Source of the DNA: a virus
IMG/VR virus record: IMGVR_UViG_3300043172_000480
Span: 1-20,994 of that record
Strand: one strand, 5' to 3'
Length of the DNA stretch: 20,994 nt
How positions within the stretch are numbered: the first letter of the stretch is position 1; each line of letters opens with the position of its first letter. This document shows positions 10,852 through 19,916 of this stretch, in pieces. Under the pieces are notes generated by a model that was not told the DNA's origin, searched no databases, and was given only the letters and a program-made list of their open reading frames with translations. The translations under genes and the position numbers were made by a program.

Positions 10852-11583
10852 TTAGCCCCCACGGGTAGGGATGTAAGTTACAAATCCATCATACACCGGC
10901 CCTGGTGCCATATCGCTGTATATCCTTGAAGGTAGACCCTCTGGGCTGTTATTGATAATAGTCTGCTCTATCATTGCCAGATCAGTCACGTCCTCTGGTG
11001 CCATGTTTACACCATAGCTGGAAGCTGATTTTTTAGTCAGTTTTAATAAGAAATATTCTGCAAAGCCAGGAGGGAACTCAAGATAATCATTTGGGTTCAT
11101 GTACTCTGTAAATGTTGATTTGTAGGTAACATTTAGTTTATAGCTGCTGCTGGATGGTGCAGGGTACAGGAAAATCTCACCATCGGTGAATCCTGGGTTA
11201 TAAAAGTATTTTGTTGGTATGCTTTGATTTGTTGATTTGAGTGAGTATTTGCTGTACTCTTTTTGGCTCATGAATGTTACCGGATAGGTTACATCATCAT
11301 TACCAATCTCTACATTTACCGCTGTTATGGCAATTGGTCTATCTAGAGGATCAGGTAAAGAGCTGGGGCCAATTAAATACTTTGGCTCTCCAGCTATTAG
11401 AGGTATAGTTTTGGTTACATATGAGAAACAGCCGCTCAATTGATCAGCGTTTAAACTATCAACAACAAAAAGCAAAGTTGTCATTCCATCACTGATAGCT
11501 TTAGCATTCGGAGTTTCTTGTTCCCCGATCACATTCAGCTTTAAGAGGGCATTGCGGATGTATTGAGCGCCTGTTAATTTCAT
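10852..11583 (-). CDS. Head-completion / tail adaptor protein, P22 gp4-like
   Basis: This 243-residue protein lies directly before the gp10-like gene. P22 gp4 has the same position and attaches to the portal after packaging as the first tail adaptor ring. The N-terminal helices (AQYIRNALLKLNVIGEQETPN, then DGMTTLLFVVDSLNAD) fit the 'helix, short loop, helix ending in WxxxG or equivalent' plan common to gp4-type and gp6-type connector adaptors. The middle (about 85-165) is beta-rich with FLYPAP, a phrase typical of these adaptors. The C-terminal third is helical (EYFLLKLTKKSASSYG). P22 gp4 is 166 residues, so this copy has extra sequence in the beta region and C-terminus. P22 gp4 has been reported to have muramidase activity; I do not see clear catalytic residues here. 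AAAGG lies about 6 bases before the ATG. Confidence 0.75.
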   Translation of the reverse strand: MKLTGAQYIRNALLKLNVIGEQETPNAKAISDGMTTLLFVVDSLNADQLSGCFSYVTKTIPLIAGEPKYLIGPSSLPDPLDRPIAITAVNVEIGNDDVTYPVTFMSQKEYSKYSLKSTNQSIPTKYFYNPGFTDGEIFLYPAPSSSSYKLNVTYKSTFTEYMNPNDYLEFPPGFAEYFLLKLTKKSASSYGVNMAPEDVTDLAMIEQTIINNSPEGLPSRIYSDMAPGPVYDGFVTYIPTRGG

Positions 11584-11592
11584 ATATTACCT

Positions 11593-12258
11593 TTATTCTG
11601 CTGTTTCTGCTGCTGCCAGTATCTCAGCTGGTGTCAGTTCTTTTTCTGGTTCATCACCTTTGGAATCATCACCTTTGGGTTCATCACCTTTGGGTTCATC
11701 ACCTTTGGGTTCATCGCCTTTGGGTTCATCACCTTTGGGTTCATCGCCTTTGGGTTCATCACCTTTGGAATTTGCCGGTGCTTTTGGCTTTGTTTTTGGC
11801 TTTGTTTTTGGCTTTGCCTTTGGCTTTGCCGGTTCAATTCTGCCTTGCTTCACATCATCGAGCATTTTATAGGCCGCCTTAAGATCTGATTGAGCGCCTG
11901 CCAGATTTAGAGCTGCTGCATTTGTTTCTTTTTCATCAGATGCATCAGATACATCCTGGTGAGCTTTTACAACCGCTGCCTTTGCCTTTGCAACTGCATC
12001 AATCTCGATCTGAAATTGTACCGGTACTCTCTTCGCTGCTGCTTTTTTGCCCAGGGGAGTTACTACACCACCGTTGACAATCTTTTCAGTTGCTTTGATA
12101 GCCATTGCAATTTTTAAGCGCTCAGGCTTCTCAATGTCATCAGCTGGTTTGGTGAGATTAAATACTTTTACAACCTGACTTAACTGCTGCTCATTTTTCA
12201 CTAGTGTATAGTGTCCAGTTGCAGAGTGCAGAAAACACGGTGTTATAAATTTTTTCAT
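11593..12258 (-). CDS. Protein of unknown function with basic and acidic tandem repeats
   Basis: The ATG at 12258 (MKKFITPC) is preceded by AAGG about 6 bases upstream and gives 221 residues. A GTG farther upstream at 12288 lies inside a hairpin and is rejected as the start. Residues 1-75 form a small basic domain. Residues about 88-140 form an Ala/Lys/Asp-rich helix. Residues about 144-161 are four KPKA/KPKT tetrads. Residues about 166-204 are eight pentads of the type GDEPK (two degenerate), and a short acidic helix ends the protein. The function is unknown. The gene lies between coat and gp4, a place where phages often put capsid accessory, decoration or head-fibre proteins, so a virion role is an inference. 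The neighbouring positive and negative low-complexity tracts suggest a flexible, possibly self-interacting or DNA- or capsid-binding tail. Confidence 0.78.
   Translation of the reverse strand: MKKFITPCFLHSATGHYTLVKNEQQLSQVVKVFNLTKPADDIEKPERLKIAMAIKATEKIVNGGVVTPLGKKAAAKRVPVQFQIEIDAVAKAKAAVVKAHQDVSDASDEKETNAAALNLAGAQSDLKAAYKMLDDVKQGRIEPAKPKAKPKTKPKTKPKAPANSKGDEPKGDEPKGDEPKGDEPKGDEPKGDEPKGDDSKGDEPEKELTPAEILAAAETAE
11648..11767 (-). repeat. Eight tandem 15-bp units encoding GDEPK-type pentads
   Basis: Eight head-to-tail 15-bp units, plus-strand form GGTTCATCACCTTTG, lie fully in frame within the gene at 11593-12258. Two copies carry GCC in place of ACC, a synonymous change. The unit at 11663 begins GAA, and this gives the DDSK pentad. 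The near-identity at DNA level, including third positions, suggests recent expansion by slippage or unequal exchange rather than old repeats kept only by protein selection. Copy number is a likely hotspot for strain variation. Confidence 0.95.
11783..11830 (-). repeat. Four tandem 12-bp units encoding Lys-Pro repeats
   Basis: Four 12-bp units of TTTGGCTTTG followed by TT or CC (plus-strand form) encode the KPKT/KPKA tetrads just before the acidic pentads of the same protein. The first two units end in TT and the last two in CC, so the array looks like two pairwise duplications. Confidence 0.9.
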
Positions 12259-12275: not shown

Positions 12276-12302
12276 TTAAGCGGCCCACTGTGAGCCGCTT
12301 AA
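12276..12302 (-). terminator. Stem-loop just after the coat gene
   Basis: A 12-bp stem around a 3-base loop (arms TTAAGCGGC... and ...GCCGCTTAA, with one G-U pair in the minus-strand transcript) begins 22 bases beyond the coat stop codon. There is no long U run after the stem, only TTAATAC, so termination would be partial at best. Strong hairpins after highly expressed coat genes can also protect the mRNA 3' end. The structure is clear; its function is inferred. Confidence 0.5.
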
Positions 12303-12323: not shown

Positions 12324-13589
12324 TTAAAGAGCACCATTAATACGAGTTGCGTGAGGTGTCCAGTATGCACCGAGACCGTGAGCCATATCAAAACGAGTGA
12401 TTGCAGTCATTGTGTCAATGTCTCCATCAGTTGTGCATTTCATTCTAATCTTAGACTCTTCATCATAGATCTGAGCTTCCTGGCCTGAGTTCTTTTGGTA
12501 GATGTTACCGAGTGCGGTACAACCCCAAAGGAATGCATGTTTATGGAGTGCAATGTTCTGCATTGAAACCTCATCACTTGCACCATCAAAAGTCACCGCA
12601 CCGCCCACAAGTGGCAATTGAGAGATATTTTGAAAAGAGTTTGTTTGAAGTGCTTCAAATTTCTCCAAAAATGTTACAACCATATCACCTGATCCATCAG
12701 CTACACCATCAATAGACTCAACAACAAAACCCTGCTGCTCCCAGCGGTTCTCATAAGTGAGTGGATTAACACGGTTTACATCTTCAAAATAGAGAATCTG
12801 ACCTTCTGTCAAATCATCACCAGGTGTAAAACCTGTAAGGGTCATTGATGTTTCGCCCTCAAGTGGAGCCACTGCAATAGTGATAGTCCCAGAGAATGTA
12901 CCATTCACCTGTACAGCAAGTCTGTCAGTCTCCCAGAATGTGAAATTCTGAGTTTTTCTGATCATACCATCTCTGTACTGCTTTGTTACTTCATCAGTCG
13001 GGTTAAAGAAACCACTTACAGCGGTTGTGTACTCAGTTACACCGTTATCACTTATGATACAGTGTCGATCACCTTTCTGAGCCTCGTATTTGTTCAGCTG
13101 AGCTTTAGCCTGGCCAAAGATACCAGCGTCACTCAGAGCGGAACCAAAGGTGCCAACAGAGTTGCTGATAGCATTTTTCATTAATGGAAGTAATTTCCCA
13201 TCAACCAGAGCACCCATTGTCTCCATTGCAGGTTTCATATACAAATCTGAGAACATTTTGAGGTTTTCTTTGCTGACAACTACATCATCAGAAAGCTCCA
13301 AAATATTCAATTCAACGTCAACACCAGCAATCTCAACTCTAGCCAGTGGAGCCTTACGCTCTACAATTGCCTCGCTTGTTCTTGTCAGTGAGTTTCTACC
13401 GCGAAAGCGGATAGGTTTAACAAATTCCATAGTATCACCGGCTTTTGTAGCCTCAAATACACGGGTTTGTCCTTTGGTTTTCTGATCCTCTGTTCTATCG
13501 CACACATTCGGTGCAATAGTTTTAGACTGAATCAGTCTTACAGCTTCCTTGGAGACTGCACTAAATTTCTGAATTTCATTAGTTCCCAT
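12324..13589 (-). CDS. Major capsid (coat) protein, P22 gp5-like
   Basis: This 421-residue protein is close to the 430 of P22 gp5 and forms the icosahedral shell with an HK97-type fold. The N-terminal 60 residues are an N-arm. The segment around residues 60-85 (TMEFVKPIRFRGRN) and the following extended stretch (VDVELNILELSDDVVVSKENL) fit the E-loop and the start of the spine. Residues about 95-160 are helical (spine helix and P-domain). The part near 215-330 is a beta-rich insertion with TGFTPGDDLTEGQILYFEDV, matching the place of the P22 I-domain. The C-terminus (DMAHGLGAYWTPHATRINGA) parallels the P22 end, which reads 'RIALWYGVNATRPEAIGV'. The ATG has AAAGGGA 6 bases upstream and follows the scaffold gene by 18 bases. 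Similarity is by layout and landmarks rather than strong identity. Confidence 0.87.
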   Translation of the reverse strand: MGTNEIQKFSAVSKEAVRLIQSKTIAPNVCDRTEDQKTKGQTRVFEATKAGDTMEFVKPIRFRGRNSLTRTSEAIVERKAPLARVEIAGVDVELNILELSDDVVVSKENLKMFSDLYMKPAMETMGALVDGKLLPLMKNAISNSVGTFGSALSDAGIFGQAKAQLNKYEAQKGDRHCIISDNGVTEYTTAVSGFFNPTDEVTKQYRDGMIRKTQNFTFWETDRLAVQVNGTFSGTITIAVAPLEGETSMTLTGFTPGDDLTEGQILYFEDVNRVNPLTYENRWEQQGFVVESIDGVADGSGDMVVTFLEKFEALQTNSFQNISQLPLVGGAVTFDGASDEVSMQNIALHKHAFLWGCTALGNIYQKNSGQEAQIYDEESKIRMKCTTDGDIDTMTAITRFDMAHGLGAYWTPHATRINGAL

Positions 13590-13607: not shown

Positions 13608-14612
13608 TTATGAGTTCATTTCTTTTTCATAGTCAACATTGCTCATCTCTAAAAGTGATGATACACCGACTTTTACACTTCTATTACCGTTACTTCTGCG
13701 CTTTTGCCCTTTTGGCTTTTTATTCTTAGACACCTTCGCGCCTCCGACATTTCTCTCAAGTGATGCAAACGATTGAGCCAGCTGGACACCGGTTTGATTT
13801 TTAAGCGCAAGGGCTAGCTCTGGATTGAGAGCTAACTTATGCAAAATCTTAACACCGTGTTTACTGTTCACAATATGTGCATCAACCTCAGGGCCAACAG
13901 AGTCAATGATTACTGAGTTTGCTAAATAAGCATTTTTGAAACCTTCATTTTTATCCATCTCGGCCTTTGCATTAATGCGAAAGGTCATCTTATCAACATC
14001 AGTGTATGCGCTTGGGTTCACCTTTGCTGCATTCATCTGAGTAATTGCTGGATTTACATTTGCCGGTACTTGTTGCTTTATTAGTGTATCATAGGTCGTT
14101 AACGCTGCTAAATACTCTGCGTATGTTCCATAGTTTGTCTCGCTTGGCTCAGCAATTATTTGTCCATTTACTATGAGCGGTTGTGGTACCGCTCCTGGTA
14201 ATTGCTGGTTTTGATTCAATGGTGCTGCAGGTGTTGCCTGGGCTTGAAAGCCCTGACTTTTTTCATGCGTTAATTGGTCTATAATTGATTTTTGTCTTTT
14301 TAACTCGTCAGCATATCCTTTGAATCGACGCTCTGTACGGTTTTTACTTTTTTCTTTTTTCTTTGCAACCTTATCAGCCGCTTGATCAACCTCATTCACT
14401 TCATCCGGTTTATCACCTTCATCCGATTCATCGCCTTCATCTAGCTCATCACCTTCACCTGGTTCATCGCCTTCATCTAGCTCATCACCTTCATCTGGTT
14501 CATCGCCTTCATCATTCTCATCATTATCGATGGTTGTATTTTCCTCAATAGATTCTGAGTCATCTAACATGTCATCAAAACTATCGGGTACATTTGTATT
14601 AATCTGTGTCAT
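13608..14612 (-). CDS. Scaffolding protein, P22 gp8-like
   Basis: This 334-residue, highly charged protein lies between portal and coat as in P22 (gp8 is 303 residues), and would direct procapsid assembly and then leave. Residues about 15-75 are extremely acidic and contain tandem DEGDE(P/L/S) hexads. Residues 80-125 switch to a basic helical segment (KVAKKKEKSKNRTERRFKG). The middle is Gln/Pro/Ala-rich and probably flexible. The last 45 residues are again basic (KVSKNKKPKGQKRR) and end in a short helix, the place where gp8 carries its coat-binding helix-turn-helix. This mixture of disordered, charged and helical parts is typical of scaffolds. The ATG is preceded by AAGGA about 9 bases upstream. 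The assignment rests on position, length and charge pattern. Confidence 0.8.
   Translation of the reverse strand: MTQINTNVPDSFDDMLDDSESIEENTTIDNDENDEGDEPDEGDELDEGDEPGEGDELDEGDESDEGDKPDEVNEVDQAADKVAKKKEKSKNRTERRFKGYADELKRQKSIIDQLTHEKSQGFQAQATPAAPLNQNQQLPGAVPQPLIVNGQIIAEPSETNYGTYAEYLAALTTYDTLIKQQVPANVNPAITQMNAAKVNPSAYTDVDKMTFRINAKAEMDKNEGFKNAYLANSVIIDSVGPEVDAHIVNSKHGVKILHKLALNPELALALKNQTGVQLAQSFASLERNVGGAKVSKNKKPKGQKRRSNGNRSVKVGVSSLLEMSNVDYEKEMNS
14404..14519 (-). repeat. Acidic hexad repeat with a 36-bp higher-order period
   Basis: Roughly six or seven 18-bp units encode DEGDE(P/L/S/K) hexads in the scaffold gene. Units alternate, so a 36-bp period is visible with copies beginning at 14427, 14463 and 14499. 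The first two full 36-mers differ by a single base, which indicates recent duplication. Confidence 0.85.
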
Positions 14613-19451: not shown

Positions 19452-19916
19452 TTATTTTTTCTGGCAGCAGCTGTGTGGATCCAATTCACCGGCACAAACC
19501 GGTTTGAATCCAGGAAGCCAACCATGGTTATTTTTCATGTATTCGTCCAGGCGCTCGATCTTTCTTACCAGTACTTTACCCACATCTTTGATGTTCTGAT
19601 TTGTCACATCAGGAGGTGAATATCTTGCTATTACTTTTACAATCGCCTCAACATGTAACATTGTATCAACATTATCATAGCCTTTGATTATATATCTTTT
19701 GACGTCATCCACAAAGCCCAGCTGGATGTATAAAACAGCAACATCAGCAACCTCCTCAATCTGGTTGTTTGGATCCTTGTTAGAGATTGCGGTGAGCAGC
19801 TCACCCTCCTCCTCTATGAGCTTTTTACGCTGATGGTCGAACCCATAGAACTGTACTGCTTTTTTACAGATCTGTTTTATACGGGCATCGGCCTCAATCA
19901 TTTTGAATGCATTCAT
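19452..19916 (-). CDS. MazG-like nucleotide pyrophosphohydrolase
   Basis: This 154-residue all-helical protein carries the MazG-family metal-binding pattern: E35-E36-x-x-E39 (LIEEEGELL), then E55-x-x-D58 (IEEVADVAVLY). Family members hydrolyse (d)NTPs to monophosphates with Mg2+. Phage versions are thought to clean or adjust nucleotide pools, or lower alarmone levels, during infection. The substrate cannot be read here. The C-terminal 50 residues are a basic helix plus a tail with Cys146, Cys151 and Cys152, outside the usual core. The ATG abuts the TAA of the upstream gene and no strong ribosome site of its own is visible, so translation is probably coupled. It is isolated from TerS by a 255-bp gap. 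Confidence 0.8.
   Translation of the reverse strand: MNAFKMIEADARIKQICKKAVQFYGFDHQRKKLIEEEGELLTAISNKDPNNQIEEVADVAVLYIQLGFVDDVKRYIIKGYDNVDTMLHVEAIVKVIARYSPPDVTNQNIKDVGKVLVRKIERLDEYMKNNHGWLPGFKPVCAGELDPHSCCQKK

Follow-up and report, generated by a model that had tools for sequence, protein, structure and literature searches.

Among the structural proteins of podoviruses, gp4/tubeA has been treated by Hardies et al. (PMC10386132), and in the LUZ24 lineage three small genes of unknown function descend with those for the portal, scaffold, coat and tubeA (PMC10386132). No report describing the protein encoded by the small gene found immediately before the adaptor gene in many related phages was found in the literature. 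Genes of this kind adjoin the adaptor gene in Vibrio phage VvAW1 (VvAW1_00009c), Pseudomonas phage PAE2 (PAE2_6) and Thalassomonas phage BA3 (BA3_0011), where they are described as hypothetical. The window analysed here, a stretch of viral DNA of 20,994 nucleotides (IMG/VR virus record IMGVR_UViG_3300043172_000480, positions 1 to 20,994), has a gene in the same place, referred to below as X. A comparison with related loci suggests, with a probability of about 0.4, that X encodes a minor, fast-evolving virion-assembly accessory in an adaptor-coupled position of a P22-like podovirus, with a spacer that has grown by slippage.

The phage is a P22-like podovirus with a P22-type portal, coat and scaffold, an adaptor of the gp4/SU10 type and a head closure protein of the gp10 type, and the order of the P22-like structural module (portal, coat, adaptor, gp10-type head closure) is found in the window. 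No close relative was detected by DNA search or by a terminase scan of genome contigs; the terminase relatives are about 45–52% identical at best (the nearest, in locus L072, is 52% identical), and the coat proteins of relatives are only about 25% identical. X belongs to the late operon and is coding: residues 1–144 score +0.42 bits/codon in frame, whereas scores in the remaining five frames run from -0.30 to -0.79, the in-frame codon usage is like that of the phage's other structural genes, and AAGG lies 5 nt upstream of the ATG. The positions of X, its parts and the neighbouring features are given in Table 1.

Table 1. Features of gene X and of its surroundings in the window
Feature	Position	Strand	Details	Basis
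Head-tail adaptor gene (gp4/SU10-adaptor type)	10852..11583	(-)	9 nt after X	
Gene X	11593..12258	(-)	221 aa; ATG at 12258, stop 11593-11595	ORF and translation, codon usage
X, last 15 residues (ELTPAEILAAAETAE)	11596..11640	(-)	predicted short helix 210-219	single-sequence AlphaFold2
X, eight GDEPK-type pentads, each starting KGD	11647..11766	(-)	15-nt period; residues 165-204	TRF
X, four (A/T)KPK units	11782..11829	(-)	12-nt period; residues 144-159	TRF
X, residues 80-137	11848..12021	(-)	predicted helical hairpin, block pLDDT ~79-90	single-sequence AlphaFold2
X, residues 1-45	12124..12258	(-)	predicted beta-hairpin 8-11/17-20 and helix 23-32, low confidence	single-sequence AlphaFold2
12-bp RNA hairpin	12276..12302	(-)	between coat stop and X start	z -4.7
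P22-type coat protein gene	12324..13589	(-)		family searches
Scaffolding gene	13608-14612	(-)		
EGDE(P/L/S)D 18-nt repeat in scaffolding gene	14403..14510	(-)		TRF
MazG/PRA-PH-like nucleotide pyrophosphohydrolase gene	19452-19916	(-)	upstream of terminase genes	borderline scores

A survey was made of 233 related loci, collected by terminase and coat alignments. In these, the interval between the coat and adaptor genes was examined, and the small gene abutting the adaptor start is called the slot gene here. Most related loci have a small gene immediately before the adaptor gene. In 59 loci, the median distance from the slot gene stop to the adaptor start is -2 nt, a value that follows partly by construction from the choice of candidates within 60 nt. 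When all ORFs of the loci were scanned with a slot profile, 47 of the 49 matches in loci with an adaptor abutted the adaptor start, a count that is not fully independent, given that the profile was trained on adaptor-abutting genes. At least one other ORF of at least 60 aa is present between the coat and slot genes in 27 of the 59 loci. As the matches abut the adaptor and other ORFs often intervene after the coat, the slot gene goes with the adaptor and not with the capsid. The preliminary description had presented X as a neighbour of the capsid, a tie that is not supported: in related loci the slot gene abuts the adaptor, and other genes often stand between it and the coat. A role near head/tail assembly is consistent with the position of X. 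The slot gene is usual rather than universal, with about 20 table entries lacking a detected one. In the P22-coat phages, it is thus a usually present, fast-evolving and unnamed gene, linked to the adaptor and not to the capsid. A role in head completion could thus be tested in isolated phages such as VvAW1 and PAE2.

Slot proteins range in length from 45 to about 220 residues. Two N-terminal motifs are common, IYLRHPxHGTKVAxxExEAxxDEKNGW and YPKWxYHxxxxxxVVxxxEExxLGxGWxxSPA, and the proteins combine a beta-beta-alpha N-domain with a disordered linker and an end that is either Lys/Arg-rich or similar to helix-extension-helix (HeH)/LEM. A Lys/Arg-rich tract (at least 5 K/R in 12 residues) is present in 56% of 62 slot proteins versus 18% of the 415 remaining small ORFs of these loci (Fisher P 4e-10), and other slot proteins end in an HeH-like segment. 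In a slot representative from locus L161, AlphaFold2 on 12 sequences predicted a beta-beta-alpha-alpha arrangement (E6-17 E20-27 H30-38 H45-52), a disordered stretch at residues 54-78 and two helices; the terminal part resembles a LEM domain weakly (Z 3.9 over 38 residues). HI1506 of Haemophilus influenzae is a two-domain protein with a context that we take to be a Mu-like prophage. It is the top PDB match (2OUT) of the L161 protein, not of X, and the two proteins are alike in having an N domain, a linker and a small C domain, although the match is not significant (Foldseek E 0.11, Z 2.3) and nothing connects X itself with HI1506.

The linkers of slot proteins are of several kinds. One slot protein has a (PNV)4 linker and a KKRRRR end (L123, 15609-15929), another has a coiled-coil-like stretch followed by a KPES-type repeat (L186, 15022-15531), and a third has a coiled-coil-like stretch, 13 Asp and a KGRRK basic end (L055, 5755-6420); these low-complexity linkers, each in a protein from the slot position, are of independent kinds. 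A tendency of slot genes towards tandem repeats was considered but did not reach significance, such repeats being found in four of 63 slot proteins versus nine of 415 other small ORFs (P 0.08). In L023, L025, L038, L043, L075 and other loci, a gene of about 130–165 aa, often starting with MALPNGAGG, lies directly after the coat gene; genes of this size between the coat and slot genes are candidates for cement proteins by size and place.

X has the place of a slot gene, with a stop codon abutting the adaptor gene across a 9-nt gap. The N-terminal motif of slot proteins (YPKW..Y or IYLRHP.HG.KV, then G-W) is absent from X. The possibility that X is a diverged member of the slot family was not supported by three sequence tests (hhalign, PSSM and HMM), all of which gave background values: the PSSM score of X is 8.2, versus background means of 8.2–8.6 and 14.8–59 for slot members, the HMM p value is 0.17–0.30, p values across the HMM and PSSM scores span 0.17 to 0.53, and the hhalign probability is at most 1%. 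The predicted order of elements in X (E8-11 E17-20 H23-32 H44-61, nearly all with pLDDT <50) is compatible with that of the L161 protein, and the KPKT tract has 6 K/R in 12 residues; this tract is not terminal, and X ends in a single short helix with no HeH. X shares with the slot proteins only its place, a low-confidence similarity in element order and a basic tract and, because it shares neither their sequence nor the HeH end, it is treated as a positional counterpart and not filed as a member. The slot genes of VvAW1, PAE2 and BA3 are like X in abutting the adaptor gene; the order of beta-hairpin, helix and linker is compatible, and many have a Lys/Arg-rich tract. X differs from their products in having no sequence similarity to them, in being longer than nearly all, in its helical hairpin and in its lack of the G-W motif and of an HeH end.

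No orthologue of X turned up when X, coat, adaptor and portal were each used for single-protein scans, no match was present in the 233 related loci, and nothing above cut-off was obtained in Pfam, PHROGs, NCBIfam or PDB sequences. Six IMG/VR matches and a match in Klebsiella phage P19 were considered as homologues and rejected, because only the charged repeat tract aligns and the proteins are otherwise different. Because it has no homologue in these loci, X could be an unrelated insertion, a newly acquired accessory gene (a moron or a host-acting gene) between coat and adaptor with no part in the virion. X does not fit the slot-family profile, and many relatives have unrelated genes inserted between coat and adaptor; however, X occupies the usual slot position, the window lacks any other slot gene, and both the basic tract and the order of elements predicted for X could fit a slot protein, making a recent insertion of this kind unlikely.

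It is equally improbable that X is a capsid decoration protein (cement or head fibre), the N-terminal part of which would bind the coat lattice, leaving a protruding repeat tail free to drift in length. Decoration genes often adjoin coat genes, X is the next gene after the coat in the window, and a long, charged, disordered tail would fit an exposed bristle. Ralstonia phage GP4, with gp1 beside gp2, provides an example of decoration next to coat (PMC9698820). However, the slot gene of related loci goes with the adaptor, the genes of about 130–165 aa right after the coat are better cement candidates, and X matches no decoration family.

The only confident part of the predicted structure of X, a single-sequence AlphaFold2 model, is the helical hairpin, and almost all of residues 1–84 have a pLDDT <50. 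A folded N-terminal part had been claimed for this protein; the model supports the claim only in part, for residues 80–137. Residues 138–209 are predicted to be disordered. A Foldseek search with the low-confidence model, which yielded no match below E 0.04, was set aside as meaningless. The tandem repeats lie within the disordered region, and both of those announced in the preliminary description, four (A/T)KPK and eight GDEPK-type units, are present: the 15-nt array has a TRF score of 214 and the 12-nt array a score of 81, whereas none of 60 dinucleotide shuffles of the window scored above 73. Six of the eight pentads are exact (KGDEP with K as the next residue), another reads KGDDS, and the final one is KGDEP with E as the next residue. 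The opposite net charges of the two tracts were also borne out, with +8 across 19 residues for the basic tract and -8 across 42 residues for the GDEPK tract, whereas the term "acidic" was too strong for the latter: each GDEPK unit has a net charge of -1, so the 42-residue tract is a mixed-charge polyampholyte rather than strongly acidic.

The history of the array can be read from its codons. Six of the eight 15-nt units show at most one site of difference, CCC encodes six of the seven pentad prolines but makes up 7% of the Pro codons in structural genes of this phage, and the codon uniformity of the pentads has a P of ~5e-5 in a simulation with the phage's own codon usage. Rare CCC and uniform codons would not be expected from selection on the peptide alone, and it was therefore the DNA itself that was copied, recently, as the proposal of a recent expansion had it. 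Among the IMG/VR contigs searched, none has three GDEPK units, whichever codons are used. As a slippage product in a disordered linker, the repeat is ordinary, and its copy number is probably near-neutral.

These data bear on two further explanations. The charge-patterned repeats might be active in themselves, with X self-associating or undergoing phase separation with the acidic scaffold or DNA during assembly. The opposite net charges side by side and the acidic repeat of the neighbouring scaffold point in this direction, but this reading is very unlikely, given that GDEPK is a mixed-charge unit, that the pair of repeats is conserved in no relative, and that the codon record indicates recent DNA copying rather than long selection on the peptide. 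That the exact repeat number is an artefact of the assembly of a metagenomic contig is highly improbable: assemblers can collapse or expand near-identical arrays, and the window is an IMG/VR virus record, but the array, at 120 bases, is below common short-read length, its interspersed variants (GGC in units 2 and 4, GATTCC in unit 7) would not be expected from a simple duplication error, and the X ORF stays open across it.

If X is a virion-assembly accessory, as preferred here, its N-terminal part would dock in the neck/adaptor region during head completion, and the helical hairpin (residues ~80–137) would anchor or oligomerise the protein. The Lys-Pro tract might then touch DNA or an acidic surface through non-specific electrostatic contacts. 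The GDEPK tract would act as a soluble, flexible polyampholyte spacer, the length of which could change through slipped-strand replication, since steps of 15 nt keep the reading frame and would be tolerated. That the basic tract binds DNA is plausible only by analogy with the positional counterparts of X, in which Lys/Arg-rich tracts are enriched as described above (56% versus 18%). As related viruses encode another small protein at this location, X appears to be an unusual variant of a viral component that has received little study, and not a new system. A broader proposal, which must be considered doubtful, is that P22-coat phages share an overlooked class of adaptor-coupled neck proteins, each with a docking domain, a disordered tether that evolves freely and an exchangeable tip that binds nucleic acid. 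Such proteins would hold on to, or sense, the end of the DNA as the head is completed; X would be an extreme member, with a tether growing by slippage. The tip variants of this proposal, which are just as doubtful, would be an AT-hook-like Lys/Arg tail, an HeH/LEM domain or, in X, the Lys-Pro repeat.

Similar repeats occur in scaffolding proteins. The array in the scaffolding gene of the window, at a distance of about 2.6 kb from the X array, has the 13-mer AAGGCGATGAACC in common with it. It differs from the X array in its 18-nt period, its more strongly acidic character, its location near the N-terminus and its more diverged units. A shared origin of the two arrays is not claimed, because similar peptides and codon preference could give the 13-mer. 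The T7-type scaffolding protein of Klebsiella phage P19 (L011, 2710-3693) has an (EGDEP)n tandem repeat that, like the array of X, lies in a charged linker; the P19 gene is one of head assembly. In relatives of P19 that are 88–90% identical, the scaffold linker is acidic but not repetitive. The gene and protein are different from X, and the repeat is convergent.

Two plus-strand ORFs, 11631-11882 (+) and 11660-11872 (+), overlap X and read the antisense of the repeat array. Codon usage speaks against their being genes, and they are by-products of the array, because a repeat period that is a multiple of three keeps these frames open. No Rfam family or tRNA was detected in the window. The RNA hairpin between the coat stop and the X start looks like a general feature of these operons: of 119 loci, 42% have a hairpin with z < -3 in the 70 nt that follow the coat stop, versus 2.5% of within-coat stretches. 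It perhaps sets the ratio of coat to downstream protein, or acts as an mRNA-end element.
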